Source of the DNA: Schumannella sp. 10F1B-5-1
Lineage (GTDB): Bacteria; Actinomycetota; Actinomycetes; Actinomycetales; Microbacteriaceae
Assembly (NCBI RefSeq): GCF_006517535.1
Contig: NZ_VHQH01000001.1
Coordinates: 62,001-126,000, forward strand
Direction of reading: 5' to 3'
DNA: 64,000 bases
In this document: piece after piece, positions 61 to 28,479 of the stretch
Layout: each line of letters begins with the position of its first letter
Numbering within the stretch: the stretch's first letter is position 1
Notes under the pieces: generated by a model
Seen by the model: the letters and a program-made list of their open reading frames with translations, nothing else
Database searches by the model: none
What the model was told of the DNA's origin: nothing
Position numbers and translations under genes: made by a program

Positions 61-1565
61 GACCTACGTCGAGCACGGGGAGCGGGGACTCAGCGCTGGG
101 CGGGAGCGCCGCATCCACCGAACCCCTGCCGCGCGAGATCGAGGTCGTCTACGACGGACCCGATCTGGATGCGGTCGCCGAGCTCAGCGGACTCCCCCGT
201 GACGAGGTCATCGCCGCGCACAGCGGGGCCGAGCACCGCGTCGGCTGGTTCGGGTTCGCGCCCGGCTTCGCCTACCTCGACACGGACTATCCCGACAGCG
301 CGGCACCCGCCCTCGCGCTGCCGCGACGTGCATCGCCGCGCGTGCGCATCGACGCCGGCTCGGTCGCGATCGCCGGAGGGCAGACCGTGATCTACCCGGG
401 CGGGACCCCGGGCGGCTGGCACCTCATCGGCCGGACGGATGCGCGGCTCTGGGATCTCGAGCGCGATCCGCCCGCGCTGCTCGACGTCGGCGAGCGCGTG
501 CGCTTTGTTCCCGTCGAGCGTCTGACCGATCATCTGCAGCGCGCGGAAGCGACCCCGCCCGACGCGCGCGACTCGAGCGGGCCCGAGCTTCGTATCCTCG
601 CCGCTCGTCCGGGTGCGACCGTGCAGGACGGCGGCCGCACCGGCTGGACCCGCTTCGGCGTCACGGTCTCGGGCCCGGCCGACCGCGCCGCGTTCGACCT
701 CGCGAACCGCCTCGTCGGCAACCCGGCCGGGACCGCGGCGATCGAGGTCACGCTCGGCGGGCTCGCCGCCGTCGCCGACGCGGGCGCCGACGCGGGGCGG
801 TGGATGTCGCTCACCGGCGCCCCGGCCCCGGTCACCCTCGACGATCACCCGGTCGCCGACACGGCGCTGTTCTGGGTTCCCGCCGGCGCGCGGCTCGAGC
901 TCGGCACCCCGCCGATCGGCGTGCGCAGCTACCTCGCGGTCGCCGGCGGAGTCGTGACCGCCCGCGTGCTGGGCTCGATGAGCACCGACACGCTCGCCGG
1001 CCTCGGCCCGGCGCCGCTCGCGGCGGGCGCGTCGCTCGCCCTGGGCGATCCGAGCGGCGTCGACCCCGACTCGCCCGCCGCCAGCAGCGCGTCCGCCGCC
1101 GACAGCGCAGCCGCCGCCGCCGGCACCGCCAGCATCGCCACCGCGGCCGACTCCGCCGGCGCGGCCCGCCGCATCCCCGTCGGCCCGACGACCGTGCGCT
1201 TCACCTGGGGTCCGCGGGATGCGCTGCTCACGCCGCACGACCGGGCGACGCTCACCGCGTCGACGTGGCGGGTGAGCGCGCAGGCCGACCGGGTCGGGGT
1301 GCGGCTCGAGGGCGCGATCGTGGGCAGCGCATCCGGGGACCTGCCGAGCGAGGGGATCGCGGAGGGCGCGATCCAGCTGCCGCCGTCGGGTGAGCCGATC
1401 GTGTTCCTGGCCGATCATCCGGTGACCGGCGGCTACCCGGTGGTGGGCGTGGTGGTCGCCGCCGATCTCGGACTGCTGGCGCAGGCACGGCCGGGCGTCG
1501 AGGTGCGGCTGCGTCCGGTCGGCGGCGCGGGCCTGCTGCACGACGGGATGCGCGTCGCATGCTGA
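1..1565 (+). CDS. 5-oxoprolinase subunits PxpB and PxpC fused (partial, 5' end outside the window)
   Basis: The product should help hydrolyse 5-oxoproline to glutamate with ATP, in the cytosol, together with a PxpA partner not seen here. The C-terminal half of PxpB (KipI) is recognisable by FAPGFAYL and the glycine-rich IAGGQT...GGWHLIGRT stretch. PxpC (KipA) follows from about residue 195 of the visible part (VQDGGRTGWTRFGV, GPADRAAFDLANRL). The usual N-terminal 80 residues of PxpB are missing and the frame is open to the window edge, so the true start is probably upstream; a TTG at 6 is the only start seen. About 40 extra Ser/Gly/Pro residues sit in the PxpB linker, partly encoded by a perfect palindrome, and an Ala/Ser-rich insert lies in PxpC at about residues 352-395. 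Confidence 0.85.
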   Translation, partial: ELPSSAGFDGANPTEMGNSRPTSSTGSGDSALGGSAASTEPLPREIEVVYDGPDLDAVAELSGLPRDEVIAAHSGAEHRVGWFGFAPGFAYLDTDYPDSAAPALALPRRASPRVRIDAGSVAIAGGQTVIYPGGTPGGWHLIGRTDARLWDLERDPPALLDVGERVRFVPVERLTDHLQRAEATPPDARDSSGPELRILAARPGATVQDGGRTGWTRFGVTVSGPADRAAFDLANRLVGNPAGTAAIEVTLGGLAAVADAGADAGRWMSLTGAPAPVTLDDHPVADTALFWVPAGARLELGTPPIGVRSYLAVAGGVVTARVLGSMSTDTLAGLGPAPLAAGASLALGDPSGVDPDSPAASSASAADSAAAAAGTASIATAADSAGAARRIPVGPTTVRFTWGPRDALLTPHDRATLTASTWRVSAQADRVGVRLEGAIVGSASGDLPSEGIAEGAIQLPPSGEPIVFLADHPVTGGYPVVGVVVAADLGLLAQARPGVEVRLRPVGGAGLLHDGMRVAC

Positions 1566-1623
1566 CCGCCGCGCCGCGCCGCGCGGCCGGATGCCCGCGA
1601 GGGACACCCGGCCGCGCATCCAC

Positions 1624-2259
1624 TCAGAGCGTGATCGTCTGCCCGTCGGCCAGGGTCACGAGCTCCTGCCCGGTGAGCTGCTGCGCGAACTGCGCGAACG
1701 AGCTCTTGCCGGCGTCGCTGAGCATGAGGTCGTGGATCTGGATCGCGCGGGCCGGCTTCACGGCGCGCACGAAGTCGACGAGCTCGCCGAGCTTCGTCCA
1801 CGGGCCCGAGGTCGGCACGAGCAGCGTCGCGACCGACGCCTCGGGCACGAAGTAGGCGTCGCCGGGGTGGTAGACCTCGCCGGCGATGAGGTAGCCGACG
1901 TTGCTCATCTCGGGCACGTCGGCGTGGATGACGGCGTGGGATCCGCCGACGGCCTCGACCGGGAATCCGGCGGCCTCGAAGGTGTCGCCCGCGGCGACGG
2001 CGGTGACGCGCCCGTCGTGCGCGCCGAGTTCGGCGGCCACGTTCGCGGGGGCCCAGACGTGCAGCTCGGGCTGCGCATCCAGGGCGGCCGTGAGGATGCC
2101 GGCGTCGAAGTGGTCGGGGTGGTCGTGGGTGATGAGCACGGCGCTCGTGCCGGCGACGAGCTCGGCGGAGTTCGGCGTGTAGGCGCCCGGGTCGATGACG
2201 AGGGAGCGGTCGCCGTCGGTCAGCACGATGGTGGCGTGGGTGTGCTTGGTGAGTTCCAT
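1624..2259 (-). CDS. metallo-beta-lactamase-fold metal-dependent hydrolase (UlaG-like)
   Basis: A 211-residue single-domain hydrolase. The metal-binding signature HDHPDH is seen near residue 45, after LVIDPGAYTPN, and further His/Asp ligands are spread as in UlaG/YtnP-type proteins. Substrate is not predictable. A GTG at 2268 also opens the frame, but it lies inside the -10 box, so the ATG at 2259 was chosen; it sits 7 bases after TATAGT and is likely the first base of a leaderless message. It is divergent from a MarR regulator that shares one operator with it, so it is probably the regulator's target. Confidence 0.8.
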   Translation of the reverse strand: MELTKHTHATIVLTDGDRSLVIDPGAYTPNSAELVAGTSAVLITHDHPDHFDAGILTAALDAQPELHVWAPANVAAELGAHDGRVTAVAAGDTFEAAGFPVEAVGGSHAVIHADVPEMSNVGYLIAGEVYHPGDAYFVPEASVATLLVPTSGPWTKLGELVDFVRAVKPARAIQIHDLMLSDAGKSSFAQFAQQLTGQELVTLADGQTITL

Positions 2260-2266
2260 GCGCGCC

Positions 2267-2291
2267 ACTATATACAGATTGACTGTATAGT
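2267..2291. promoter_or_regulatory. shared operator and back-to-back leaderless promoters for the hydrolase and marR
   Basis: TATACAG (2271-2277), five bases, CTGTATA (2283-2289) is a perfect inverted repeat, typical in size for a MarR dimer site. Each side carries a TATAGT -10 box: 2286-2291 on the plus strand, six bases before the marR ATG, and 2272-2267 on the minus strand, seven bases before the hydrolase ATG. One bound dimer would block both promoters. Confidence 0.75.
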
Positions 2292-2297
2292 TTCGGG

Positions 2298-2756
2298 ATG
2301 CGCGAGGATGAGCCGATGCCCGACTTCACGCTCGACGACGCCAACGCCTTCCGCGCGGCGATCGGCGACAGCGTGCGGGCCATCCGCCGCACCGAGACAA
2401 CCCCCGCGGGGCAGATCGAGGTGCTCGGCTATCTCGCCCGCGACGGAGCGCAGAGCATCGCGACGCTCGCCCGGCTGCGCCGGGTGCGGCACCAGACCAT
2501 GAGCGCGACGGTCGCCGACCTCGAGCGAGCCGGACTCGTCTCACGCGCACCCGACCCCGCCGACGCGCGCGGCGTGCTCATCACGGCGACGGATGCGGGC
2601 CTCGCCACGATCGTCGAGCTGCGCCTCCGCCGCTCGACCGAGCTGCACGATGCGGCGCACGCGGTGCTCACGCAAGAGGAGCGCGCGGCGCTCGTCACCG
2701 CGACGACCGCGCTGCACAAGCTGACCGCGTCGCTGCACGCGCGCGCGGAGGAGTAG
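2298..2756 (+). CDS. MarR family transcriptional regulator
   Basis: A 152-residue winged-helix regulator. The central part has the family helix-turn-helix and wing (IATLARLRRVRHQTMSATVA, then LVSRAPDPADARGVLI). The ATG at 2298 begins six bases after a TATAGT box, so the message is probably leaderless; a second ATG is 12 codons further in the leader-like start (MPDFTL) but has no better signal. It likely represses itself and the divergent metallo-hydrolase through the palindrome between them. The ligand is unknown. Confidence 0.88.
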   Translation: MREDEPMPDFTLDDANAFRAAIGDSVRAIRRTETTPAGQIEVLGYLARDGAQSIATLARLRRVRHQTMSATVADLERAGLVSRAPDPADARGVLITATDAGLATIVELRLRRSTELHDAAHAVLTQEERAALVTATTALHKLTASLHARAEE

Positions 2757-2796
2757 GGAAGGCCACTGAGCGGGAGATCTGGCGAGCGTCGTGCCC

Positions 2797-3951
2797 TCAG
2801 TCGCGAGAGCCGCGCTCTTCCAGCTCGTCGATGACGGCCTGCTCCGCGGCAGTGACGGAGCCGTCGATGTTGGCGATCAGCTCCGCAGCCTTCACCAGGT
2901 CGCTGAGATCACCGGTCTCGGCGTCGACTCGCGCCCACACCTCGTCTTCATCGACATCGATGACTCGAGCGAGCTGGTCGTCGGTCACTTCGTGCCGCTC
3001 CTTGACCAGGCGCGTGAGCTGGCGGAACAGCAGAGCCTCATCGTCGGCGATCTTCTCATCGGCCTGCACGACCAACCAGGCGATCCAGAGCAACAGCTGC
3101 GGGTGTGCCGTACGGTCAGCGATGCGTTCGGCGGCCTCGATCACGCGAGCCTGGTTGCGGTAGACCTGCCGCGCATGCCGACCGGCCATCCGGGTCGTCC
3201 AGAAGTTCAGTGCGGTCGCGAGTGGGATCCCGACGAGCGGGATGCCGATCTTGATCAGATTGCGCTGAAGCAGATAGGTGCCGAGCACCGGAATGCTCTG
3301 CACCGCCGCAAGCGTCGCGCCGGAGAAGATCTTCTTGATCGCCGGCCGGATCACGACCGGGACCGCCTTGAGCGCGCCCTCCCGCAGCAGCTCGCCGCCC
3401 TTGATGGAGAAGGCGACCTTCACGAGGTCCCAGAGATCATCGGGGTCATTGATGTCGATCGGGACCCGATAGAGCACCGCCAGATCATGCGCGAGTCGGA
3501 TCTGCAGCTGAGTCGTGAACGCGAGGTCGATCACGAAGGTGACGCCGGCGGCGGGAAGCGTCAGAGGCGATGCCCCTCCCGCGGACCCGATCGTCGCGAC
3601 GACAGCCGCCGAGTACGCTGCCGCCGATGCTGCCCCCTCGAGCGCCGCATAGCGCGCCGCCATCTTGATGCGCTGGTCGACGATCACATCCGCCGGAGCG
3701 CCTTCGTACTTCTCCTGGAACCATTCGTAGGTGGCTGTCTTCGTGTAGGTCTCGAGCGCGTGGGCAATCAGCTTGGAGAACCAGTTCCCTGACTTCAGGT
3801 CGTCGCCAGTGAGGCCCTTCACCCACTCACGAAGATCTTCGGTCTCCTCCTCGACCTCCGCCCGCTCGATATCCGTGAACTCGCGAGGGAGCTTCGGGTC
3901 ATCGACAGCGTCGGCTTGGCTCTCGCTATCGGATTCCGGGTGCTGGGGCAT
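2797..3951 (-). CDS. EcsC-like and TerB-like domain protein
   Basis: A 384-residue protein with no signal peptide. Residues about 105-215 are Ala/Gly-rich helices followed by FVIDLAFTTQLQIRLAHDLAVLYR, which resembles EcsC-family proteins. The C-terminal 100 residues (LWIAWLVVQADEKIADDEALL and IANIDGSVTAAEQAVIDEL) look like the two acidic helical repeats of a TerB-like metal-binding domain. The first 45 residues are acidic and probably disordered. AAGGA stands before the ATG at 3951. Membrane association is likely from the hydrophobic helices, but no function is proven for the family. Confidence 0.6.
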   Translation of the reverse strand: MPQHPESDSESQADAVDDPKLPREFTDIERAEVEEETEDLREWVKGLTGDDLKSGNWFSKLIAHALETYTKTATYEWFQEKYEGAPADVIVDQRIKMAARYAALEGAASAAAYSAAVVATIGSAGGASPLTLPAAGVTFVIDLAFTTQLQIRLAHDLAVLYRVPIDINDPDDLWDLVKVAFSIKGGELLREGALKAVPVVIRPAIKKIFSGATLAAVQSIPVLGTYLLQRNLIKIGIPLVGIPLATALNFWTTRMAGRHARQVYRNQARVIEAAERIADRTAHPQLLLWIAWLVVQADEKIADDEALLFRQLTRLVKERHEVTDDQLARVIDVDEDEVWARVDAETGDLSDLVKAAELIANIDGSVTAAEQAVIDELEERGSRD

Positions 3952-4072
3952 GAGTCGTTCCTTCGTCGTTCGGGCTTGTTCGACAGACTCTCAGGTGCCA
4001 GCGACACCGACTGCTTCTCGCGTGCGCTTCACCCGCTTTTCACCCGCGGACTGGGGTACCGCCGGCGCCGCG

Positions 4073-5485
4073 TCAGCGGTGCGCCGCGTACTGCTCCCGG
4101 ATGATCGGCTCGGCCGGCTCGTCGTAGGTCGCCTCGGCGGGCACGGTCCACTCGGGTCGAACGCCGGTGAGCGCCCAGGCGGCCTGCGCCGCCGCGCCCG
4201 CGGCGACGTACTCCCCCGGCGTCGGCACGATGACCGGCCGGCCGAAGACCTGCGCCGCGATCGTGGCGACGGCGGTGCTCTGGGCGGCGCCGCCGACGAG
4301 CAGGATGCGCCGCACATCCACCCCCTGGGCGAGCACGGCGTCGAGTCCCTCGGCCAGTCCGCACAGCATCCCCTCGATCGCGGCGCGGGCGAGGTTCTCG
4401 CGGGTCGTGCCGGCGAGGGTGAGGCCGAACAGGGATGCGGTGGCGTCGGGCAGGTTCGGAGTGCGCTCGCCCTCGAACCACGGCTGCAGCACCAGACCAC
4501 CCGAGCCGGGTGCGGCGGCGAGCGCGAGGCGTCCGAGCTCGTCGTGGTCGACGCCCAGCAGGCGCGCGGTCGCGTCGAGCACCCGGGCCGCGTTGAGCGT
4601 CGCGACGAGCGGCAGGAACGCGCCGGAGGCATCGGCGAAGCCCGCGACCGTGCCCGTCTCGTCGGTCACGACCTGCTCGGTCACGGCGAAGACGGTGCCG
4701 CTCGTGCCGAGCGAGACGACCACGTCTCCTTCCCGCGCGCCGAGACCGAGGGCCGCCCCGGCGTTGTCGCCGGCACCCGGGCCGACGACAAGACCGGCCG
4801 GGATGCCGGGCAGCTGGGCGGTGACGCCCGCCGACTCCCCCGGGCCGAGCACGCGCGGCAGCACGACCTCGTCGTCAGCGGCTCCGCGGCCGAGCGCGGC
4901 GACCAGGAGTCCGCGATCCCACGCCTCGTCCGACGGCGACCAGTACCCGGTTCCGCTCGCGTCGGAGCGATCCGTCGTCAGCTCGGCGAGATCGCGCGAG
5001 CCGCGCAGCCGCCAGCTCAGCCAGTCGTGCGGCAGCGCGACCGCCGCGACGCGGCCCGCGTTCTCGGGCTCCGCATCCCGCAGCCAGCGCAGCTTCGTCG
5101 CCGTGAACGACGCCACCGGAACGCTGCCCGTGCGCCGCGCCAGCTCCGCCGCGCCGAGCTCGGCGATCAGGTCGGCCGCGGCGCCGGCCGAGCGGGTGTC
5201 GTTCCACAGCAGCGCCGGTCGGATCACGTCGCCCGCCGCATCCAGTACCACCATGCCGTGCTGCTGCGCCGCGACCGAGATCGCCGCCACGTCGTCGAGG
5301 CCGCCCGCGTCGGCGACCGCCGCCAGCAGCGCCTCCCACCAGGCATCGGGGTGCACCTCGGTGCCATCGGGATGCGCGGCGCGCCCCGAGCGCACGACCG
5401 CGCCGCTCGCGGCATCGCGCACGACGACCTTGCACGACTGGGTCGACGAGTCGACTCCGGCGACCAGGACAGCAGCGTCACTCAC
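4073..5485 (-). CDS. xylB: xylulokinase
   Basis: Phosphorylates D-xylulose to xylulose 5-phosphate, the second step of xylose catabolism. The FGGY-kinase N-lobe begins [15 protein letters not shown], the substrate region includes [11 protein letters not shown] and LLWNDTRS, and the C-lobe has the nucleotide-binding LVGGAAQS. Length of 470 residues is normal. The GTG at 5485 was preferred because GAGAGG lies nine bases before it; the ATG at 5494 touches that same ribosome site. It lies 26 bases after xylA on the same strand, so the two form an operon. Confidence 0.93.
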
Positions 5486-7989: not shown

Positions 7990-9006
7990 TCACGGGTGAG
8001 ATGCCGACCTCGCGGACCCCGCGGCGACCGGATACGACACGTAGGAGAAGCGCCGCGCATCCGGAGCCCAGCTGTTCACGTTGATCGTGCCCTGACCGCC
8101 CGGCACCGGGATGCGCGCCAGCGGCGCCGCCCAGTCGTCGGTCGCGACGACGACGAGGTGCACGGGAAGGTCGGCGGGATGCCCCTCCGTTCCCGGCGGG
8201 AACTCGAGGTAGACGGCGTACCGGCCGTCGGGTGCGAGGTGCGGGAACCAGTCGACGGTCTCGCTCTCGACGAGACGCTCGACCTCGGCGGCGGCGTCCC
8301 GCCCGGCGGCGTCACCGGTCGCCGCGGACTCGCCGGCCGCCGCGGACTCACCGGTCGCTACGTTGCCGCGGATCCGCGCGAGCTGCGCGTGCCCGGGTCG
8401 GGTCGCCCAGCGCTCGGTGTTGAACAGGATCCACTCGCCATCGGGCGACCACTCCGGCCCGTCGATGTGGCCGTCGCCGGTGTCGACGAACGTCGAGGGC
8501 CCGCCGGTCGCCGGCATGATCGCGAGCACGCCCGGATGCGCGAAGTCGGTCATGCGCACATAGGCGAGCCGTCGCCCGTCGGGACTCACCCCGTGCAGGA
8601 AGCGCCAGACGCCGTCGTCGCTCGTGACACGGCGCACGGCCCCGCCGCTCAGCGCGCCGCGATAGATGTGCCCGTCCTGAGCGGACATGAACACCTGGTC
8701 GCCGTCGGGGTCGAGCACGTGATCGTTGTTGATCGGCGGCAGGCCCTCGTGCGCGATGCGGCGCAGGGCCGGGCGATCGGCGTTCTCCGCGCCTGCATCG
8801 AGATCGAGCATCCACAGCGCGCCGTCGCCGTTGACCACGAGCCCGGCGCCGTCGAGGGTCCAGTTCGGCGCCTCGACGAGCATGTCGTCGCTCGCGAAGA
8901 CGACCTCGTCGCGGCCGCTCTCGATGTCGTAGACGTGGATGCGCGCGGTCTGCCCGCGCGCGAGGACGCGGCCGGGCAGGTCCTCGTCGTCAGCCGCGTC
9001 GCTCAT
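7990..9006 (-). CDS. TolB-like beta-propeller protein
   Basis: A 338-residue protein made of repeated WD40/PD40-type blades: WTLDGAGLVVNGDGALWMLDL, LDPDGDQVFMSAQDGHIY, VSPDGRRLAYV, WSPDGEWILFNT and LAPDGRYAVYLEFP. No signal peptide is seen, so it is probably cytosolic. A short Ala/Gly/Glu insert with repeated AAGESAAAGE units interrupts one blade at about residue 228. The ATG at 9006 follows an ACGCTA (TAGCGT on the minus strand) by seven bases; a GTG at 9015 is the alternative. Related proteins are annotated as transporters or oligopeptidase-like domains, without proven function. Confidence 0.7.
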   Translation of the reverse strand: MSDAADDEDLPGRVLARGQTARIHVYDIESGRDEVVFASDDMLVEAPNWTLDGAGLVVNGDGALWMLDLDAGAENADRPALRRIAHEGLPPINNDHVLDPDGDQVFMSAQDGHIYRGALSGGAVRRVTSDDGVWRFLHGVSPDGRRLAYVRMTDFAHPGVLAIMPATGGPSTFVDTGDGHIDGPEWSPDGEWILFNTERWATRPGHAQLARIRGNVATGESAAAGESAATGDAAGRDAAAEVERLVESETVDWFPHLAPDGRYAVYLEFPPGTEGHPADLPVHLVVVATDDWAAPLARIPVPGGQGTINVNSWAPDARRFSYVSYPVAAGSARSASHP

Positions 9007-9013
9007 CACGCTC

Positions 9014-9019
9014 ACGCTA
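9014..9019 (-). promoter_or_regulatory. leaderless -10 box (TAGCGT) of the beta-propeller gene
   Basis: TAGCGT on the minus strand ends seven bases before the ATG at 9006. This matches the spacing at 11719, 30669, 52270 and 54794. Confidence 0.5.
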
Positions 9020-9051
9020 TCCGCGCCGCGCGCCGATCCCGAGAGTCGCCC

Positions 9052-9408
9052 TCAGCGCTCGTCGTCGGCGAGCACCTCGCGGGCGACGCCGATCGCCGTC
9101 ATCGCCTTGGGCCAGCCGGTGTAGAACGCGAGGTGTGTGATCGCCTCGATCAGCTCGCTCGGCTCGACCCCGTTCTCGACGGCGCGCCCCAGATGGAACC
9201 GCAGCTGCTGCGCATCCCCGCCGGCGACGAGCGCCGCGACCGTGATCAGGCTGCGGTCGCGAGCGGCGAGACCCTCGCGGTTCCAGACGTCGGCGAACAG
9301 CACGTCGTCGGTGAGCTCGGCGAGCTTCGGGGCGACGTCGCCGATGCTCGTCCGGCCGCCGCCGACCTGCAGCGGCTGGTCCGGCCGCCCGGGCGCAGCC
9401 GGGGTCAT
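9052..9408 (-). CDS. carboxymuconolactone decarboxylase family protein (AhpD-like)
   Basis: A 118-residue all-helical protein of the CMD/AhpD superfamily: ELTDDVLFADVWNREGLAARDRSLITVAAL, then QLRFHLGRAVENGVEPSELIEAITHLAFYTGWPKA. The AhpD CxxC motif is absent, so peroxidase activity is unlikely; such stand-alone members are often decarboxylase-like or of unknown role. Its ATG overlaps the stop of the upstream cupin gene by four bases (ATGA), so the two are translationally coupled and probably act in one step or on one substrate. Confidence 0.85.
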   Translation of the reverse strand: MTPAAPGRPDQPLQVGGGRTSIGDVAPKLAELTDDVLFADVWNREGLAARDRSLITVAALVAGGDAQQLRFHLGRAVENGVEPSELIEAITHLAFYTGWPKAMTAIGVAREVLADDER

Positions 9409-9812
9409 CGCGCGCCGCCTTCGTACTCGGCATCCGTGATGTGCTCGGCCCAGATGGTGGTCGTCGCCGGATCGTCGCCGAGCTCGAGCAGGGCGAGGTG
9501 CTCCATGAAGGTGCCCTGGGCGGAGGCGTGCCAGTGCTCCTGCCCGGGCGGCGTGTAGAGCGTCTGCCCCGGGTGCAGCTCGAGGATCTCGCCGTCGCGC
9601 GTGCCGAAGCGGGCCACACCGGCGGTCACGTGGAGGTACTGCCCGCGGGCATGCGAGTGCCAGGCCGTGCGGGCGCCCGGCGCGAAGCGCACGCGCGCCA
9701 TCGTGGCGCGCTGGTCGCCGTCGTGCGGTGCGACGATCGGGTCGACCCAGACGTCGCCGGCGAACTGCTCGGGCGGGTTCTTCGCGGTCGGCTGGGCGGG
9801 TTCGATGTTCAT
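9405..9812 (-). CDS. cupin domain protein
   Basis: A 135-residue single-domain cupin. Motif 1 is WHSHARGQYLHVTAGVARFG and motif 2 is LHPGQTLYTPPGQEHWHAS, with the His and Gln metal ligands present. It resembles the small manganese cupins annotated as (R)-mandelonitrile-lyase-like, which very often sit next to carboxymuconolactone decarboxylase genes as here. The ATG at 9812 was chosen because GGAG lies ten bases upstream; the frame is open further but composition changes there. Confidence 0.85.
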   Translation of the reverse strand: MNIEPAQPTAKNPPEQFAGDVWVDPIVAPHDGDQRATMARVRFAPGARTAWHSHARGQYLHVTAGVARFGTRDGEILELHPGQTLYTPPGQEHWHASAQGTFMEHLALLELGDDPATTTIWAEHITDAEYEGGAR

Positions 9813-9956
9813 GTCGGTCGACTCCTCTGATCGGATGCGGCGGATGGGGGCGGTCGCGCGCGCGGCACGCGAGCGCAGCCGGACCATCGCATCCAGTCGA
9901 GCGCGGCCGCGCCCGGAAAGGGAGTCCCGGCCGAGACGTGTACTCCCGGGGTACCC

Positions 9957-10143
9957 CTACCCCGCGACCACGTCCGTGCTCGCGCTCAGCTCGCGCCACG
10001 CATCCACGTCGCCGTCGCGGGCCCCGCGCGCGGTCGCGTAGGCCTGCAGCGCATCGCTGCCGAGCAGCGCGAACGCGGGCGGCTCCTCCGCTTCGGCGAG
10101 CCGGATGAGCGCCACGGCGGCGCGGGCCGGGTCGCCGGGGGGT
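9957..10143 (-). pseudogene. C-terminal remnant of a short-chain dehydrogenase
   Basis: Reading the minus strand from about 10143 to the TAG at 9957-9959 gives PGDPARAAVALIRLAEAEEPP followed by LLGSDALQAYATARG and DAWRELSASTD. This is the characteristic last 60 residues of a large actinobacterial SDR group. Nothing upstream encodes the NAD-binding fold: the frame runs into a Pro-rich stretch and then the tRNA terminator. There is no plausible start. About 80 percent of the gene is missing, so this is a decayed fragment left next to the tRNA. Confidence 0.75.
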
Positions 10144-10190
10144 GCCGGCGGGCTCGGCGTCGTCGGCGAGAAGCCGCCGCCGGGAACGAG

Positions 10191-10222
10191 AGAAGCGGGC
10201 CACCCGAAGGTGACCCGCTTCT
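10191..10222 (-). terminator. terminator of the tRNA-Arg gene
   Basis: A 14-base stem (AGAAGCGGGCCACC at 10191-10204 and GGTGACCCGCTTCT at 10209-10222, one G-T pair) with a four-base loop. It lies 18 bases past the 3' end of the tRNA on the minus strand. The tail is not T-rich, which is usual in this genome. Confidence 0.75.
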
Positions 10223-10240
10223 CTTCTGTCTCAACCAGAG

Positions 10241-10313
10241 TGCGCCCGGAGGGATTCGAACCCCCAACCTTCTGATCCGTAGTCAGATGCTCTATCCGTT
10301 GAGCTACGGGCGC
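10241..10313 (-). tRNA. tRNA-Arg (anticodon ACG)
   Basis: A complete 73-base cloverleaf on the minus strand: acceptor stem GCGCCCG paired with CGGGCGC, D-arm GCTCAACGGATAGAGC, anticodon loop CTACGGA giving ACG, and T-arm GGGGGTTCGAATCCC. The discriminator is A and CCA is not encoded. The A at the wobble position is expected to be deaminated to inosine, reading CGU, CGC and CGA. Confidence 0.97.
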
Positions 10314-10485
10314 ATGTCGTCCGCCGGCCGAGGCCGCCGAAGCAACCTGACGACTATATCAGCGCGCGGAGGGTGCTCGTGACCACTCCTGACCGCCGAC
10401 CTCGGCCGCGTCCCGCACCGACCCGGCCGCCGCGGGGTCCCCGCCGACCGCCGCGCCCGGTCCCACCGCCTCGACCGCATCCCGC

Positions 10486-10617
10486 GAGTGGCCACGAATG
10501 CACAGGACGCGCCGCTCGATCCGGACGTTTGTGGCCACCCTCGAACACCAGCGGGCCGAGGGTGGCCACGAATGCACGAAACACGCCGGGGGTCACGTGC
10601 ACTTCTGGCCACCCTCG
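10486..10617. repeat. two tandem copies of a palindromic element
   Basis: Copy 1 (10486-10543) begins GAGTGGCCACGAATGCAC and ends GTTTGTGGCCACCCTC. Copy 2 (10557-10617) has arms of 22 bases at 10557-10578 and 10596-10617 that match at 19 positions, around a 17-base centre. Both copies share the left arm TGGCCACGAATGCAC. The rest of the gene-free stretch 10314-10671 (about 170 bases of Pro/Arg-like GC-rich sequence before copy 1 and 50 after copy 2) shows no gene. The stretch lies downstream of the aldo/keto reductase gene. Confidence 0.75.
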
Positions 10618-10671
10618 AGACGGCGCGAGGCGAAGGCGGTCACGAGACGCGTGGGTCCGCGACCGCGGCGC

Positions 10672-11712
10672 TCACACGTCGCCGACGCGCGCGCCCGACC
10701 AGAGGTCGACGCCGGCCGTGTCGCCGGCGAGCGTGTCGATCTCGGCGAGCTCAGCATCCGTGAACGTCAGGTTCGACAGGGCCGCCACGTTCTGCTCCAG
10801 CTGCTCGACGCGCGAGGCGCCGATCACGAGCGAGGTGACGCGCTCGTCGCGCAGCGCCCAGGCGAGGGCGAGCTGCGCGAGCGACTGGCCGCGGCGCTGG
10901 GCGACCGCATCCAGGCCGTTGAGGCGGGCGACGAGCTCGGGCGTGATCACGTCCGCATCCAGCGAGCTGCCGGCCGCGGCGCGCGAGTCGGCGGGAACGC
11001 CGTCGAGGTACTTGCCGGTGAGCAGACCCTGGGCGAGGGCGGTGAAGCCGATGACGCCCGCGCCGACCTCGGCGGCCGCATCCAGCAGCCCCTCGGTCTC
11101 GATCCAGCGGTTGAGCATCGAGTACGAGGGCTGGTGGATGAGCAGCGGGGTGCCCAGCTCGCGCAGGATCGCCGCCGCCTGCCGCGTGCGCTCGGCGTCG
11201 TACGACGAGATGCCGACGTAGAGCGCCTTGCCCTGCTGCACGGCCGTGTGCAGCGCGCCCATCGTCTCCTCCAGGGGCGTGGATGCGTCGAGCCGGTGCG
11301 AGTAGAAGATGTCGACGTAGTCGAGCCCCATGCGCTCGAGCGACTGGTCGAGCGAGGCGAGCACGTACTTGCGCGAGCCGCCGCCCTGACCGTAGGGGCC
11401 GGGCCACATGTCCCAGCCGGCCTTCGTCGAGATGACCATCTCGTCGCGGTAAGGCTTGAAGTCCTCCCGCATGAGGCGGCCGAAGTTGACCTCCGCGGCC
11501 CCGTAGGGCGGGCCGTAGTTGTTCGCCAGATCGTGGTGCGTGATGCCGAGGTCGAAGGCACGACGGCTGATCGCGCGCTGCATCTCGAAGGGGCGGTCGT
11601 CGCCGAAGTTGTGCCAGTAGCCGAGCGAGAGCAGCGGCAGGTCGAGGCCGGAGCGTCCGGTGCGGCGGTAGGGCATCGACGCGTAGCGGCCGGGATGAGC
11701 GACGTAGGTCAT
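10672..11712 (-). CDS. aldo/keto reductase, YghZ/GPR type
   Basis: A 346-residue NADPH-dependent reductase. It matches the L-glyceraldehyde-3-phosphate reductase (YghZ) group: YRRTGRSGLDLPLLSLGYWHNFGDD, LANNYGPPYGAAEVNFGRLM, STKAGWDMWPGPYG, GLDYVDIFYSHRLD. The catalytic Tyr and Lys lie in those motifs. The family reduces toxic aldehydes such as methylglyoxal. The ATG at 11712 follows TAGCGT by six bases, so the gene is likely leaderless. A separate MDR gene is divergent from it. Confidence 0.9.
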   Translation of the reverse strand: MTYVAHPGRYASMPYRRTGRSGLDLPLLSLGYWHNFGDDRPFEMQRAISRRAFDLGITHHDLANNYGPPYGAAEVNFGRLMREDFKPYRDEMVISTKAGWDMWPGPYGQGGGSRKYVLASLDQSLERMGLDYVDIFYSHRLDASTPLEETMGALHTAVQQGKALYVGISSYDAERTRQAAAILRELGTPLLIHQPSYSMLNRWIETEGLLDAAAEVGAGVIGFTALAQGLLTGKYLDGVPADSRAAAGSSLDADVITPELVARLNGLDAVAQRRGQSLAQLALAWALRDERVTSLVIGASRVEQLEQNVAALSNLTFTDAELAEIDTLAGDTAGVDLWSGARVGDV

Positions 11713-23312: not shown

Positions 23313-25067
23313 TCAGCGCGCCGCAGCGTGCGTCGACACCTCGCTCGCGCTCAGCGCGCGCGAGTAGATCGCGACCTCGTCGAGGTATCCGCGGTAGTAG
23401 TTCATGCCGGTCTGCAGTCGACCGAAGTCGATGTTCGTCGAGGCGGTGAGGGCGGCCGTGCTGCCGGTGACCGAGCCGCCCGTGGCCGTGCCGTCGACAT
23501 AGAGGCGCACGACGCCCGAGGCGCGGGTCATGACCACGTGGTGCCACGCACCGTCATTGACCTTGACGGCGCTGGTGACCGAGACGTCGGGGTTGCCGGT
23601 GCCGGCGGCGACGTAGCCGCCGCCCATCAGCGCGATGCCGAAGTCGTTCTGCACACCGGGCGTCTCGGCGTCGACGAGCCCGAGACCGTTCCACCAGTTG
23701 CCGGTGCCGCGGCCGGCGGAGGTCGAGCTCATCCAGAACTCGATCGTGAAGTCGTTCTGGATGGTGCGGCTGACCCGCGCGAAGTCGTCGACGCCGTCGA
23801 AGAAGAGCGCCGTGTTCCCGTCGGCCGTCGCGCCGGCCGAGCCGGTCGTCGCACCCGAGATCGCGCCCGCGTTCGCTCCGGCGGCCGAGTCGGCCGCCGT
23901 GGTGCCGCTGTCGTCGAGTCGCCAGAGGCTCAGCAGCCCCGAGGTGCCGAGCACCGTGGCGGCGTAGCGGCCGACGGCCTTCACCGTCGCGCCGCTGGTC
24001 GTGATCGTCTGATTGCCCACCGCATCCTGGATCACGGCCCGGTACTGGGAGCAGCGGCCGGCGGTGATCGACGGCGAGTAGGAGAAGGCGTTGTCGCCCG
24101 AGTAGCCGACGACGTCGCCCCATGCACCGTAGGCGGCGCAGGTGGTTCCCGTGAGGGTCGCGGTGCGGCTCTGCAGGGTGCGCTTCGCCACACCGGAACC
24201 GCCGCCGTCGCCGACGGCGGCGATCGTGACGGCGACGGTGGAGGCGCTGGTGACGCCGTCCGCGTAGCCGATCGCGCCGCCGGTCGGCGCGGTCGAGTCG
24301 TTCGCGAACGTGAACGTCGCGGCGGCGCGGTTGCCCGCCTGGTCGAAGCCGTCGACGCCCCACATCGGGGTCGAGGTGGTGGCGGCGGTCCAGCTGACGG
24401 GCGCCGAGACGAAGGGCGGGCCGGCGGCCACGTTCGACTGCGCGTGGCTGAAGCCGGCGCCCAGGATCTCGCCCGTCGACATCGAGGCGGGCCCCGAGCC
24501 GGCGTCGGTCATCGCGTTCACCAGGGTGAACGAGCCGGCGGCGGAGCCACGATAGAAGATCGTCGAGCCGGCGAGGGCCGCGCCGGTCACGGAGCCGAGG
24601 CTGAAGCTGTTCGTCGGCGGCGTCGTGTCGGCGTTCGCGACGGCCACGGTCGCGCTCGCGGGCCCCTCGGTTCCGACCCAGCTCTTGTAGCGCGGGGTGA
24701 TCGTGTAGCGCCAGGTGCCGACGGGAGTGGCGCCCTCGACGCAGGATGCGGCGGTGACGACCCCCGCGCATCCCCCGGTCGCGGCGACGGCCGTGCCGCC
24801 GCTCGCGCCCGCGTACCGGGTCACGACGTAGCCGTCGGCGGGGTCGGATGCCGCCCACGTCACGGTCACGCTCGTGCCGGCAGCGCTGACCGTCGGGCGG
24901 GCACCCGTGCCGAGCGTCGCCGCCGCGCCCGCGCCGCCCGCACCGCTCAGGGTCGTCGGGGTCCAGAACGCCCCGGCGACGCCGGGCACGACGACCGCGC
25001 CGGCGATCATCGTCAGCACCAGCGCGGCCGCGGCCGCGACGCCGCCGCCGGGCAGACGGCGGCTCAC
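23313..25067 (-). CDS. exported LamG-domain protein of the SipW-type locus
   Basis: A 584-residue protein. An N-terminal hydrophobic helix (AAAAALVLTMIAGAVVV) ends PGVAGAFWTPTT, the AFW pattern of a SipW-type leader. Next come Ig/fibronectin-like segments (VTWAASDPADGYVVTRY; VDGFDQAGNRAAATFTFAND). Residues about 400-575 form a LamG/concanavalin domain: LLSLWRLDDSG, ALFFDGVDDFARV, WHHVVMTRASGVVRLYVDGT, YLDEVAIYSRALSASEV. It likely binds polysaccharide or other surface ligands outside the cell. The GTG start overlaps the previous stop (GTGA), so it is the last gene of a coupled set. Confidence 0.75.
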   Translation of the reverse strand: MSRRLPGGGVAAAAALVLTMIAGAVVVPGVAGAFWTPTTLSGAGGAGAAATLGTGARPTVSAAGTSVTVTWAASDPADGYVVTRYAGASGGTAVAATGGCAGVVTAASCVEGATPVGTWRYTITPRYKSWVGTEGPASATVAVANADTTPPTNSFSLGSVTGAALAGSTIFYRGSAAGSFTLVNAMTDAGSGPASMSTGEILGAGFSHAQSNVAAGPPFVSAPVSWTAATTSTPMWGVDGFDQAGNRAAATFTFANDSTAPTGGAIGYADGVTSASTVAVTIAAVGDGGGSGVAKRTLQSRTATLTGTTCAAYGAWGDVVGYSGDNAFSYSPSITAGRCSQYRAVIQDAVGNQTITTSGATVKAVGRYAATVLGTSGLLSLWRLDDSGTTAADSAAGANAGAISGATTGSAGATADGNTALFFDGVDDFARVSRTIQNDFTIEFWMSSTSAGRGTGNWWNGLGLVDAETPGVQNDFGIALMGGGYVAAGTGNPDVSVTSAVKVNDGAWHHVVMTRASGVVRLYVDGTATGGSVTGSTAALTASTNIDFGRLQTGMNYYRGYLDEVAIYSRALSASEVSTHAAAR

Positions 25068-25546
25068 GATCCCACCGCCAGGGCGACCGTCGCGACCGCG
25101 CCCTGGCAGCCGCTCGGCGCCGAGGCCGAGAGGCCGAGAGCGCCCGGCAGCGTGATCGCGGTCGAGCCCGTCGCTGCGACATCCCAGCCGGTCGACGAGG
25201 GCGTGAAGGCGAAGTTCGAGGCGGGGCAGGCGGTGCGGTGCGCGGCATCGACCGTGATGCCGGCCGCACCGAGCTTCAGCGACGGGATGCGCACCGCACC
25301 CGAGCCGGAGGTCGCCGTCGCGCGCACCGAGGTGGTTCCCCCGGGGAGCAGGTCGGCGGTCGCCGTCGCCGGCGTCAGCTCGACCGTCGAGCCGGCCCCG
25401 CTCGAGGCGGCGCCGCCCGCCGATCCGCTCGTCGACCAGAACGCCCAGGCGCCCGAGCCCACGGCGAGCAGGGCCACGACGAGCGCCGCGGTCGCCAGTG
25501 CCCGGGTCGGGACGCGCCCCCGATCCGACGCGGTCGTCGCGCTCAT
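25064..25546 (-). CDS. SipW-type exported protein
   Basis: A 160-residue protein with a leader RALATAALVVALLAVGSGAWAFWSTSGSAGG. The A-F/Y-W-S-T pattern right after the hydrophobic core is the hallmark of SipW-dependent signal peptides, known from TasA and camelysin. The rest is a Thr/Ser/Ala/Gly-rich beta domain with two cysteines (TACPAS, SGCQGA) that could form a disulphide. ATGA overlaps join it to the gene before, and GTGA to the LamG gene after. Role unknown; matrix or fibre component is an inference. Confidence 0.7.
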   Translation of the reverse strand: MSATTASDRGRVPTRALATAALVVALLAVGSGAWAFWSTSGSAGGAASSGAGSTVELTPATATADLLPGGTTSVRATATSGSGAVRIPSLKLGAAGITVDAAHRTACPASNFAFTPSSTGWDVAATGSTAITLPGALGLSASAPSGCQGAVATVALAVGS

Positions 25547-26115
25547 CAGCGGACCTCCCCGTCGGCACGGTAGGCGAGGCTCAGCTCGACGCCGCGGCAC
25601 GCCTCGGGAGCCCGGGTCGCCGACGCGAGCGCGATGCGCGGCCACTCGGCGGAGGGCACGGCGAGCTGCGACAGCGTGCGCGTCGCGCCCTCGGGCACCC
25701 GCACCTCGGCCGCGCTCTGCACGACCGTGAAGTCGTCGGCCGAGCAGCCCTCGACGGCGAGACCGCCCGACAGCACCGCGGTGACGTCGACCTGGATGCC
25801 CGTCACGCGCAGCTCGCCGGCATACGGGTTCTCGACCCGCACGTCGACCGGCGCATCCACGCCCGGCGCGACCGGAATGGCGACCGAGCCCGTCACGCGG
25901 AATCCGGCGAGGCCGTCGACCATGGCGCCGTCGCCCGTGCCCGACCCCGAGACCGCCCCGCGGTCGGCGTCGACCGGACCTCGCGCGCCCGTGAGCTGCA
26001 GCGCCGTGCACGACGCCAGCCACGCGAGCAGCACGACGCCGAGCAGCGCCAGCGGCACCACGACGCGGCGGCGTCGAAGGCGCGGCGCTGCCGTCGCGGA
26101 CTCGGGTGAGGTCAT
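25546..26115 (-). CDS. membrane-anchored protein of the SipW-type locus
   Basis: A 189-residue protein with a basic start (LRRRRVVV) and one N-terminal hydrophobic helix ending LAWLASCTALQ. LASC resembles a lipobox, but the Cys lies late in the helix, so lipid anchoring is uncertain. The exported part is a beta-rich domain with two Cys (EGCSADDF and EACRGVEL). It is coupled by ATGA to the next SipW-type gene. No family recognised; perhaps an assembly or anchor partner. Confidence 0.6.
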   Translation of the reverse strand: MTSPESATAAPRLRRRRVVVPLALLGVVLLAWLASCTALQLTGARGPVDADRGAVSGSGTGDGAMVDGLAGFRVTGSVAIPVAPGVDAPVDVRVENPYAGELRVTGIQVDVTAVLSGGLAVEGCSADDFTVVQSAAEVRVPEGATRTLSQLAVPSAEWPRIALASATRAPEACRGVELSLAYRADGEVR

Positions 26116-26295
26116 CGGCTTTCCGTCGGGTCGGAGAGTGCGGATGCGGCACGCGGCGAGGCGGGGAGCTCTCGTGGCGTGATCAGAGCAGGAGCGATCG
26201 CCGAGGCGGAGCTCCTGCGGGGGCGCCCTCGACGGTCCGGCCGGGCCGGGTGGGCCCAGCCGGATCGTCGTCAGCGCTCAGCTGGCGGTGGCGGC

Positions 26296-26778
26296 TCAGC
26301 TGGCGGCGTAGCTGAAGTTGACCTTCGCGCCCTTGCAGGCGTCCTGGTTCGTTTCCTTGTTGTTGAAGCCGATCGTCGCGCCGGTGAAGGTCGCGCTCGC
26401 GCCCTTCGCGATGTCGGAGCCGACGCTCATGGCGGCGTTCGTCAGCGTGTAGTTGCTGGAGTCGCAGGTGGCCGAGGTGCCGGTCGTTCCGTCGGCGAGC
26501 GTGACCGAGCTGATCGACACGGTGACCTTGGCGACGTAGACCGACGAGCTCGCCGCGGCCGGGTTGCTCACCGTGCCGGAGATCGTCTGCGCGGCAGCGC
26601 CGGGCGCGAGGTTCGCGTGGGTGCTGGTCTGGGCGATGGTCACCGTTCCGCTGGTGCCGGTCGTCGCCGAGCCGGTGCCGGTGCCGGTGGTCGACCAGTA
26701 GGCGAACGCGGCGGTTCCGGTGCCGAGAACGAGGGCGGCGGCGACCGCGATGGCCGCGATCTTCTTCTTGTTGCGCAT
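26296..26778 (-). CDS. SipW-type exported protein, first gene of the locus
   Basis: A 160-residue protein. MRNKKKIAAIAVAAALVLG is followed by TGTAAFAYWSTTGTGTGSAT, a textbook SipW-type leader. The mature part is Thr/Ser/Ala-rich, probably an all-beta fibre-like domain, with paired cysteines (ATCDSSNY and DACKGAK). It is the same length as the SipW-type protein at 25064 and shares the architecture. No SipW signal peptidase gene is visible in the window. A 180-base gap separates it from the three coupled genes downstream. Confidence 0.75.
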   Translation of the reverse strand: MRNKKKIAAIAVAAALVLGTGTAAFAYWSTTGTGTGSATTGTSGTVTIAQTSTHANLAPGAAAQTISGTVSNPAAASSSVYVAKVTVSISSVTLADGTTGTSATCDSSNYTLTNAAMSVGSDIAKGASATFTGATIGFNNKETNQDACKGAKVNFSYAAS

Positions 26779-27148: not shown

Positions 27149-27889
27149 ATGAGCGACAACAAGATCCCCGTGTTCGACATGGCGGTGCGGCGCGAGCTGT
27201 TCGAGCGGCGCGTGCTCGTGCTCGACGGCGTGCTCGACGACGACAACGGCACGCTGCTGGCGACCCAGATGATCGCGCTGGCGAGCGCCGACGAGAGCCG
27301 CGACATCGCCCTCTGGATCCACTCGCCGGGCGGCAGCGTTCCCGCGATGCTGGCGATCCGGGATGTGATGCGCACGATCCCGAACGACGTCTCGACCCTC
27401 GTGCTGGGCATCGCCTACAGCGCCGGGCAGTTCCTGCTCTCGGCCGGGACTCGCGGGAAGCGGAAGGCCCTGCCGCACGCCCGGGTGCTGCTGCACCAGG
27501 GCTCGTCGGGCATCGGCGGCTCGGCGGTCGACATCGAGCTGCAGGCCGACGACCTGCGCCACACTCGCGACACCGTGCTCGGTCTCATCAGCGACGACAT
27601 CGGCCAGCCGCGCGAGCGCGTCTTCGACGACTCGCTGCACGACCACTGGTTCACCGCGCGGCAGGCGCTCGACTACGGCCTCGTGGATGCGATCGTCAGC
27701 TCCTTCGACGACTACCGGCCGGGCGAGCGGCTCGGTTCGGCGCCGGTCGGGTTCGCGCCGGCGGTCGCGCCGGCGTCGTCGGTCGTGGGCGCGGGATCCG
27801 GCGACGGGTCGGGCGCGAGTGCGGTCGTGTTCCGGCCCGCCACCGACGCGGCCCCGCGCATCCCGGCCACTGCGGAGCCGACCCGATGA
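27149..27889 (+). CDS. accessory ClpP-family protease subunit, catalytic triad present
   Basis: A 246-residue ClpP paralogue. The serine is in GIAYSAGQFLLSAG (Ser 91), the histidine in ARVLLHQ (His 116) and the aspartate in HDHWF (Asp 165). Residues after about 190 form a Val/Ala/Pro/Ser-rich tail not found in housekeeping ClpP. It is coupled by ATGA to a second ClpP whose serine is gone, so the two probably form a mixed particle working with an AAA+ unfoldase encoded elsewhere. The housekeeping clpP1-clpP2-clpX cluster is not in this window. Confidence 0.85.
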   Translation: MSDNKIPVFDMAVRRELFERRVLVLDGVLDDDNGTLLATQMIALASADESRDIALWIHSPGGSVPAMLAIRDVMRTIPNDVSTLVLGIAYSAGQFLLSAGTRGKRKALPHARVLLHQGSSGIGGSAVDIELQADDLRHTRDTVLGLISDDIGQPRERVFDDSLHDHWFTARQALDYGLVDAIVSSFDDYRPGERLGSAPVGFAPAVAPASSVVGAGSGDGSGASAVVFRPATDAAPRIPATAEPTR

Positions 27890-28479
27890 GCACCTACACG
27901 ATCCCGAACGTCATCGCCCGCGACCCCCGCGGTGACCGGGTCATGGACGTCTACTCGCACCTGCTCACCGAGCGCATCATCTACCTCGGCACCGGGGTGG
28001 ATGCGGGCGTCGCCAACGCGCTCATCGCCCAGCTGCTGCACCTGGCCTCCGACAGCGGCGACAGCGACATCCAGCTCTACATCAACTGCGAGGGCGGCGA
28101 CCCGAGCGCGATGCTGGCGATCTACGACACGATGCGCTTCATCCAGCCGGATGTCGTGACGACCTGCATCGGCCAGGCGGTCGGCGTGGGCGCGGCCCTG
28201 CTGGCGGCGGGTGCCGCGGGCAAGCGGGCGGCGCTGCCGCACGCGCGGGTCGTGCTGCACCAGCCGGCGGCGCAGGGGCGCGGGGCGATCCCCGAGCTGA
28301 TCCTGCAGGCCGACGAGGTCGTGCGCATCCGCAGCGACATGGAGGGGATCCTGGCCGAGCACACCGGCCAGACGGTCGAGACGCTGCGCGCCGACACCGA
28401 CCACGACCGCGTCTTCACGGCGCGCGCCGCCCGCGACTACGGCCTCGTCGACCACGTGCTCGCCCGCGCCCCGCGCTGA
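27886..28479 (+). CDS. ClpP-family subunit lacking the catalytic serine
   Basis: A 197-residue ClpP paralogue. The region that should read GQAASM reads GQAVGV, placing Gly 100 where the nucleophile belongs. His 125 (VVLHQP) and Asp 174 (HDRVF) remain. Fold motifs such as LYINCEGGDPSAMLAIYDTM and DYGLVD are intact, so it should assemble but not cut. This recalls ClpR-type inactive subunits of cyanobacteria and plastids. The ATGA overlap with the active subunit supports a fixed two-subunit complex. Confidence 0.85.
   Translation: MSTYTIPNVIARDPRGDRVMDVYSHLLTERIIYLGTGVDAGVANALIAQLLHLASDSGDSDIQLYINCEGGDPSAMLAIYDTMRFIQPDVVTTCIGQAVGVGAALLAAGAAGKRAALPHARVVLHQPAAQGRGAIPELILQADEVVRIRSDMEGILAEHTGQTVETLRADTDHDRVFTARAARDYGLVDHVLARAPR

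Follow-up and report, generated by a model that had tools for sequence, protein, structure and literature searches.

A four-gene actinobacterial module with SipW-type leaders and its possible role as a membrane-anchored, TasA-like surface fibre

Gene content and layout of the locus

Four consecutive open frames, here called A, B, C and D, occupy positions 23313-26778 on the minus strand of the window, i.e. the whole 64,000-nucleotide stretch of DNA that was analysed (Table 1). B and C overlap by 1 base (TGATG) and C and D by 4 bases (GTGA); A is set apart, 180 bases upstream of B. The initial annotation, which described four genes in a row, three of them with overlapping starts, among them two equal-sized proteins with SipW-type leaders and a LamG protein with a similar leader, is borne out in these respects, with the overlaps lying at the B-C and C-D joints. 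The stalk of D appears Ig/fn3-like by inspection, Pfam giving no match for that part, and PHROG matches of D were attributed to its LamG domain. A scan for sigma-70 promoters and T-tailed terminators found none.

The flanking genes encode, as judged by inspection, a glycoside phosphorylase-like protein, an aldo-keto reductase-like protein and two ClpP-like proteins, with the same flanks in one relative (G003).

Table 1. Genes and features of the locus (positions are those of the window; cut sites are predicted)
Feature	Position	Strand	Description
Gene A	26296..26778	-	160 aa; SipW-type leader, beta-sandwich domain with an invariant Cys pair; proposed shaft (major) subunit
Leader of A	26701..26778	-	Predicted cut between AAFA and YW; from sequence and conservation
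Conserved mature tail of A			YWSTTGTGTGSATTGT
Hairpin just past A stop	26230..26270	-	Strong; shuffling test
Gene B	25546..26115	-	189 aa; hydrophobic anchor at the N-terminus, no SipW-type end; A/C domain follows; proposed membrane anchor
Hydrophobic anchor of B	26008..26064	-	By inspection; terminates in WLASC, lipobox-like
Gene C	25064..25546	-	160 aa; SipW-type leader and A-type domain; proposed minor/adaptor subunit
Leader of C	25442..25546	-	Predicted cut between AWA and FW
Gene D	23313..25067	-	584 aa, GTG start; SipW-type leader, stalk, C-terminal LamG; proposed tip protein
Leader of D	24969..25067	-	Predicted cut between VAGA and FW
LamG of D (Laminin_G_3, PF13385)	23334..23765	-	Residues 435-578, E 2.4e-23 (Pfam)

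Conservation of the module and variation of its end protein

Type 1 is defined by the order A-B-C-D together with overlap at the B-C and C-D joints; it occurs at 10 loci in 9 genomes of 6 genera, the window included, with the -1 and -4 overlaps present in all 10. Conservation of gene order in relatives, on which the initial annotation had made its case depend, is thus found. Matches to A were obtained in 28 genomes besides the window's own, from 17 of which loci were fetched, and looser versions of the module are spread across the phylum (actinobacteria). The spread is patchy, A and D being missing from three of the four other members of the genus that were searched; A was not found in plasmid records, and B, as a single-sequence query, matched G003 alone among 59 relatives. 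As far as the sequences compared go, this is a widespread module and no isolated case. No characterised system of such composition, the initial annotation having known of none, was found in open-licence PubMed Central papers, within which the four-gene module appears undescribed so far.

The end protein differs between loci. D carries LamG in eight of the nine type-1 loci scanned and a ricin-type lectin in the ninth. Elsewhere its end domain may be of ricin, ice-binding or Ig type while A and a B-type protein persist, and the distant D proteins are mostly Ig-like only or carry no recognised domain, so that an adhesive tip is not general. The domain scans covered D proteins other than that of L100, which a contig end truncates. 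LamG is a frequent carbohydrate-binding fold, and this and the flanking genes in the window and in G003 would suit a D that is secreted to bind carbohydrate and capture nutrients, with neighbours that are there by chance or as accessories. We consider this very unlikely, given the retention of A-B-C-D together across other genera, the overlapping starts of B, C and D, and the exchange of the end domain with no change in the A and B-type companions.

A, B and C contain paralogous copies of a single domain, and two Cys never vary across the 66 rows of their alignment (A2, from which the truncated ORF L101 1-484 and the B-type proteins encoded at L089 and L094 were excluded); each mature protein has exactly two Cys in 41 of 41 A/C rows, and the pair may form a disulfide. 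B can thus be described as a fibre-type protein that is anchored and lacks the SipW-type leader. The paralogy of the three, and the standing of B as an anchored member of their family, are new here, at the level of sequence. The membrane-anchored partner of the initial annotation is accordingly corrected to a member of the same family as A and C, its anchor being recognised by inspection. A reading of B as a lipoprotein was considered and rejected as not general: WLASC is present in the window and in G003 and WLISC in L150, and the lipobox-like end is missing from the other 12 B proteins compared.

The stretch downstream of A is distinctive in its predicted folding. In the window, none of 200 shuffles of the 80-nt stretch past A was as stable (z -4.0). 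In eight of the 10 type-1 loci the post-A hairpin is matched by at most 2 of 200 shuffles, as against 0/9 after B and 1/9 after D, and it is kept by position, not by sequence; it is unexceptional in the other two type-1 loci and in most other A loci (4/17 at ≤2 of 200). A strong hairpin 3' of A, and not of B or D, in most type-1 loci is as expected were A the major subunit.

Leaders, predicted cut sites and SipW-type peptidases

The leaders of the A and C proteins of the fetched loci (alignment A3; 30 A and 11 C proteins) share a strict pattern around the predicted cut, with Ala at P3 and Ala, Gly or Ser at P1 in 41/41, an aromatic residue at P2 in 32/41 (Trp in 3/41), and an aromatic residue at P2' in 41/41 (Trp in 38). 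Trp is also at P2' in 10 type-1 and two Kribbella-type D proteins, the aromatic P2' following an AxA-type site in 10/10 of the former, as it does in all A/C rows. Gly recurs in the mature A/C tail at +6 (40/41), +8 (40/41) and +10 (37/41). On these alignments the leader pattern is more than chance and conforms to that of SipW substrates, and a cut of SipW type would leave [FY]W, an aromatic pair, at the start of the mature proteins, along with a Gly-rich tail. A control with exported proteins (73 predicted leaders, family members included) gave an aromatic P2' in 19, at least four of these 19 looking like membrane or wrong-frame segments; it is crude and is not relied on as proof.

The leaders might instead be cut by ordinary signal peptidase I, with the aromatic pair a trait of the mature proteins, in which case a fibre may still hold. 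All of them obey the -3/-1 rule, no SipW gene lies in the module loci, and the query proteins P0001 and P0002 (the latter starting two codons ahead of the ATG of C) gave no match at E≤1 to TIGR04088 or the subfamily SipW-leader models of NCBIfam. In PMC10269814 the blocking by TasA is largely put down to Trp at P2 and to the whole of P3 to P4', and that Trp is rare here; peptides with Ile for Phe at P2' were released by LepB more slowly still. The same source, however, reports for E. coli only that none of 143 verified LepB substrates has an aromatic P2' and that such a residue makes MBP cleavage slower, and TasA, a SipW substrate, has an aromatic P2' (PMC10269814; further literature: PMC9674648, PMC10903470, PMC13082335). 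The frequent aromatic P2 in our alignment, W or F at P2' in six of seven proteins of this kind beside the genome's own SipW genes, and a SipW-type enzyme in every type-1 genome tested likewise count against signal peptidase I, which we regard as a less than probable, if serious, candidate. As to the NCBIfam result, TIGR04088 gave 13.8 bits for one of three A/C homologues and no match for the other two, and for four proteins of the genome's own SipW loci it gave 26.6 bits, two scores of 14.4-14.7 and one non-match (cut-off 19); with the latter mostly below cut-off, the model is not sensitive here.

SipW-type peptidases are present elsewhere in the genome, as the initial annotation had anticipated. 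Three were found, at three SipW loci, two of which have a ricin-type or LamG companion; TIGR02228 scores were 95.8 and 55.0 bits (cut-off 51.85), with a third of 46.4 below cut-off. The window is C2:62001-126000, the four TIGR02228 matches of the genome lie on two other contigs, C13 and C323, and the SipW model finds none in the 64 kb, in agreement with the earlier statement that the window has no signal peptidase gene. Nor was a SipW gene found in any of 47 fetched module loci, some of them short and ended by contig ends; as a control, the model recovered 19 of 19 known SipW loci. All eight other type-1 genomes have a TIGR02228 match, above cut-off in seven. A SipW-type peptidase is, however, present in all 24 other genomes tested, 11 of which have no A match, so its presence is not discriminating. 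Tying the locus to one SipW gene was also tried: the enzyme on C323 has YW-type neighbours, but in G406 and G414, each with the module and a single peptidase match, the neighbours are AW- or AF-type only, and no SipW gene is thus assigned to the module. We infer that A, C and D are cut by an enzyme of this type.

A possible surface fibre and its relation to known systems

The AlphaFold model of mature A is a 7-stranded sandwich (pLDDT 88.6) with its first 20 residues unordered. Foldseek places the TasA fibre (8aur_A) first among 350,542 chains, a weak match (prob 0.99, E 0.012), with no match for the A model at E≤0.001, and VIA-align gives 8aur_A a Z of 5.5, on par with unrelated Ig folds. TasA is absent from the best 50 Foldseek matches of the B model, and P0001 and P0002 have no match at E≤1 to PF12389 or NF046066 (TasA/camelysin). 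With leaders kept, the A/C profile reached prob 82 against TasA-type proteins of the same genome set; a mature-only profile was negative against four such proteins (prob 0.9), and sequence homology of the mature parts was not supported by this comparison. Antibody chains in a PDB sequence search with alignment A2 were taken as chance.

We propose, with confidence evenly poised, that the products of the four genes form a membrane-anchored, TasA-like fibre on the cell surface, with an exchangeable end protein. A, C and D would exit by Sec, and a SipW-type (ER-type) signal peptidase whose gene lies elsewhere would cut them, their mature Gly-rich tails perhaps acting as the joining strand. A, in excess, would polymerise into the shaft; B, a membrane-bound copy of the domain lacking a free SipW-type N-terminus, would hold the base; C would be a minor or adaptor subunit; and D, with the same kind of leader and no A-type domain, would sit at the end and bear the binding domain, here LamG. 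Polymerisation, strand joining, the tip position and adhesion are each inferred. The initial annotation's suggestion of a surface fibre with an adhesive tip is partly supported.

The same parts could form a non-polymeric complex, with B holding A, C and D to the membrane and the whole acting as a small adhesin or in sugar sensing. Such a complex would suit B as an A/C paralogue with a hydrophobic anchor, the confinement of the ligand-type domain to D, and a TasA fold match that is not significant, a generic Ig-like sandwich being the common result; we nonetheless think it unlikely, because the hairpin past A alone in most type-1 loci points to excess A, the glycines of the A/C tail are stricter than a mere linker needs, and the unordered tail ahead of the sandwich is reminiscent of the N-terminal strand of TasA, which moves upon assembly.

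A more specific version of the fibre proposal, which we offer tentatively, is that each part bears one or both halves of a joint. B, with a receiving domain and no tail, would be the base; A and C, with both, the shaft; and D, with a tail and no receiving domain, the tip. This code would be common to actinobacteria with exchangeable ends (LamG, ricin-type lectin, ice-binding type, Ig), one branch having a base with an N-terminal LPXTG-like signal. The tails of A and D were compared by a leave-one-locus-out score, with 24 D proteins and 26 of 30 A proteins (two of L093 and those of L101 and L102 being left out). A joining tail common to A and D in type-1 loci was rejected: beyond the FW pair, rank 1 was reached in 0/10, and in 3/10 with the pair included, the tail of the window's D ranking 238 against 532 other positions. 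In 12 type-2 and two Kribbella-type D proteins, tail likeness to A was found in 14/14.

If the fibre proposal is correct, TasA-like matrix fibres are not confined to Bacillus and archaea but are also made by an unnamed module widespread in actinobacteria, whose membrane anchor is built in and whose end protein can be exchanged. The SipW-type peptidases of these genomes, on which no study was found in open-licence PubMed Central, would then have a testable set of substrates.

Chaperone-usher and archaeal bundling pili likewise have Ig-like subunits, and the donor-strand model of assembly is borrowed here by analogy from them; unlike chaperone-usher pili, no chaperone or usher was seen in the module locus, and the archaeal bundling pilus 7ueg is a weak Foldseek match of the A model (rank 10, prob 0.13). 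No LPXTG sorting signal, a feature of sortase pili, is evident by inspection at the ends of A, C and D.

Two loci of the same genome also invite comparison. The camelysin/TasA-type locus L013 has SipW-type leaders, a PF12389 TasA-family protein and a LamG protein, but has its own peptidase, leaders that end before AF rather than [FY]W, and no A-type domain that was found. L011, of the TIGR04089 exported-by-SipW family, has a leader ending in SLA followed by YWTGSADAGSATT, near that of A, together with a ricin-type protein whose leader is of the YW kind and an LPXTG-like protein (by inspection); by contrast with the module, it adjoins its own SipW gene, and its mature proteins are not recognisably A-type, the 29 columns aligned between its first protein and A being all round the leader.

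The TasA-TapA-SipW operon of Bacillus subtilis resembles the module in its Sec leader with an aromatic P2', its sandwich with a movable N-terminal tail, and a second exported protein, and its fibre is the top, albeit weak, structural match of A. Mature A and C, however, have no significant sequence similarity to the TasA-type proteins of these genomes, and the module differs from the operon in having SipW outside the locus and in features that, to our knowledge, the Bacillus operon does not have, i.e. three paralogous domains, two invariant Cys, a membrane-anchored paralogue and a large Ig/LamG protein.

The four-gene row and its conservation

Genes A, B, C and D lie in a row on the minus strand, with A on the upstream side and a gap of 180 bases between A and B; B and C overlap by 1 base, C and D by 4 bases. 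The frames bear out the initial annotation of a row with SipW-type leaders on A, C and D, predicted to end in AAFA/YW, AWA/FW and VAGA/FW, respectively (slash, predicted cut), and with a LamG domain in D (Laminin_G_3, residues 435-578, Pfam E 2.4e-23). Nothing in A, B or C lies above a Pfam cut-off. Two tandem genes, ClpP-like by inspection, are located directly upstream of A on the opposite strand (27149-28479), as they are in the sister species.

Position of the four module genes in the window
Gene	Length (aa)	Coordinates	Strand
A	160	26296-26778	minus
B	189	25546-26115	minus
C	160	25064-25546	minus
D	584	23313-25067	minus

As judged from their sequences, A, B and C belong to a single family. 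Using A as a query finds C in the same genome (E 4.6e-5), and A-, B- and C-seeded models each retrieve all three window genes in an iterated HMM search of the fetched loci. When 66 domains of A, B and C are aligned, two Cys residues are invariant; the mature A/C proteins, 41 in all, each have exactly these two, which may form a disulfide. Thus B, earlier described as a membrane-anchored partner, is a copy of the fibre-type domain that carries a hydrophobic anchor and lacks the SipW-type leader end. B evolves fast; as a single-sequence query it finds a match only in the sister species among 59 relatives.

The module is real and conserved. D has a near full-length match in 7 of 398 family genomes and one confined to its N-terminal two thirds in a further 2 (own genome included; counted from individual match rows, the overall tally of 93/398 being mostly LamG alone). 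All 9 also carry A, itself matched in 27/398 family genomes and 16/85 genera (own included). These 9 genomes, from 6 genera, hold 10 loci ordered A-B-C-D (type 1), all ten with both B-C and C-D overlapping by 1 or 4 bases, so the gene order, which it had been proposed to check in relatives, is kept. In the sister species the flanking genes are also the same; A and D are absent from 3 of 4 other genus members searched, and one relative (G222) has a rearranged set. Kribbella monticola and Streptomyces sp. SID13031 (Kribbella-type loci) carry A, B and an Ig protein with an FW leader. Wider searches match A in 17/297 genomes of the order and 15/296 of the phylum (own included in both); of 17 distant loci fetched, 7 hold all four genes, in one case ordered A-C-B-D, and the others hold fewer module genes or a second locus type.

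Leaders and SipW-type peptidases

Among 41 A/C rows, the residues before the predicted cut are Ala at P3 (41/41), Phe, Tyr or Trp at P2 (32/41) and Ala, Gly or Ser at P1 (41/41), followed by Tyr or Phe at P1' (37/41) and Trp at P2' (38/41; aromatic in 41/41). As described in one study (PMC10269814), P2' aromatics are not seen in 143 verified substrates of E. coli LepB, an aromatic P2' slows MBP cleavage, and the SipW substrate TasA has Phe at P2'. The same study ascribes the TasA block to P3 to P4' jointly, Trp at P2 above all; hence an aromatic P2' alone is no proof. Cleavage of the leaders by SipW is predicted as likely.

A SipW-like peptidase had been expected elsewhere in the genome, and three matches are present: C323:4059 (95.8 bits), C13:177749 (55.0) and C13:309650 (46.4), the last below the cut-off of 51.85 bits. 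Each adjoins proteins with leaders of this kind, with Trp or Phe at P2' in 6/7. Three results speak against SipW. No SipW gene occurs in the window, as initially claimed for signal peptidases, nor in the 47 fetched module loci (one, L054, with D only), using a model that recovers 19/19 SipW loci. A peptidase match is found in 24/24 genomes tested, 20 above cut-off, of which 24 genomes 11 lack an A match. A curated SipW-leader model matches neither window query protein (P0001, P0002), but is insensitive, as it also misses 3/4 proteins encoded at the SipW loci of this genome.

At one peptidase locus (L013, G000:C13:300000-318000, ~8637-11001), a PF12389 (camelysin/TasA) protein adjoins an open frame that runs across both a SipW-type peptidase and a LamG protein (leader AHA/AFATP); a sister-species locus (L105) has a similar arrangement. 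At another (L011, G000:C323:1-14000, 42-4562), the row consists of a member of TIGR04089 (exported by SipW), a further protein whose leader is of this kind, a ricin-type protein whose leader is of the YW type, one that looks LPXTG-like by inspection, and a SipW-type peptidase.

A second locus type and the varying large protein

Other genomes of the family have the order A, D', B' (type 2), in which the leader of the large protein D' is of the same kind as that of D ([FYS]W). A PF11999 ice-binding type domain is present in 5 of 6 D' scanned (L087, L091, L092, L095, L096; not L084). LamG occurs in 8/9 type-1 D proteins scanned and a ricin type in 1/9; ten distant D proteins have LamG (1), Ig-like, fn3-like or chitobiase-C-like domains (7) or no match (2). 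Therefore A and a B-type protein are constant, and the domains of the large protein vary.

Among the 13 complete B-type proteins listed, 10 open with a Cys and an LPXTG-like signal, followed by two hydrophobic stretches and an A-type domain; those of L088, L089 and L094 do not open in this way. The signal is N-terminal, not C-terminal, and reads Cys-x(1-2)-L-[PAS]-x-T-G immediately ahead of the first hydrophobic stretch (L084, L085, L086, L087, L090, L091, L092, L095, L096, L097; also L149). The NCBIfam LPXTG model scores 1/3 B' scanned above cut-off (19.9 vs 15.9 bits).

Fold, stoichiometry and a putative fibre

Built from the 66-row alignment, the AlphaFold model of mature A shows seven strands in a sandwich (pLDDT 88.6) and leaves residues 1-20 unordered. 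In a Foldseek search of 350,542 chains the top match is the TasA fibre (8aur_A; E 0.012, prob 0.99, TM 0.48), with no match at E 0.001; an archaeal bundling pilus (7ueg) ranks 10 (prob 0.13). VIA-align to 8aur_A (Z 5.5, 125 residues, rmsd 7.7) is on a par with unrelated Ig folds. For B, the model (pLDDT 83.3) matches other sandwiches, TasA not being among the best 50 matches listed. Compared as profiles with four TasA-type proteins from these genomes, A/C reach a probability of 82 with leaders and 0.9 without. The modelled A fold is TasA-like only as a lead.

A stable hairpin (no more than 2 of 200 dinucleotide shuffles of the 80 bases after the stop codon as stable) follows A in 8/10 type-1 loci, including the window (z -4.0, 0/200), in 1/2 Kribbella-type, 4/17 other A loci of the family and 7/17 distant loci. 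It follows B in 0/9 (window not in this set) and D in 1/9 (window D, 9/200). The stems after A differ in sequence from genus to genus, and no T run follows. The hairpin, not in all loci, may be a terminator or 3' stabiliser allowing excess A, as expected for a shaft protein.

The evidence best fits a fibre anchored in the membrane, in which A would be the shaft, B the base, C a minor subunit and D an end piece carrying the binding domain. The mature N-terminal tail could be a joining strand, as described for TasA (PMC9674648); the unordered A tail in the model and the strictly kept Gly at +6 (40/41), +8 (40/41) and +10 (37/41) of A/C fit this idea. Beyond the FW pair, the A tail recurs in 14/14 large proteins of type-2 and Kribbella-type loci and 0/10 type-1 D proteins, that of the window included, so the strand model has more support in the wider family than in the window.

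The initial statement that no characterised system has this composition agrees with the open-licence literature, where none was found and the module is apparently undescribed. The TasA family sequence model does not match and membership of that family is not claimed; the module is best filed as a variant of SipW-type, TasA-like surface fibres.
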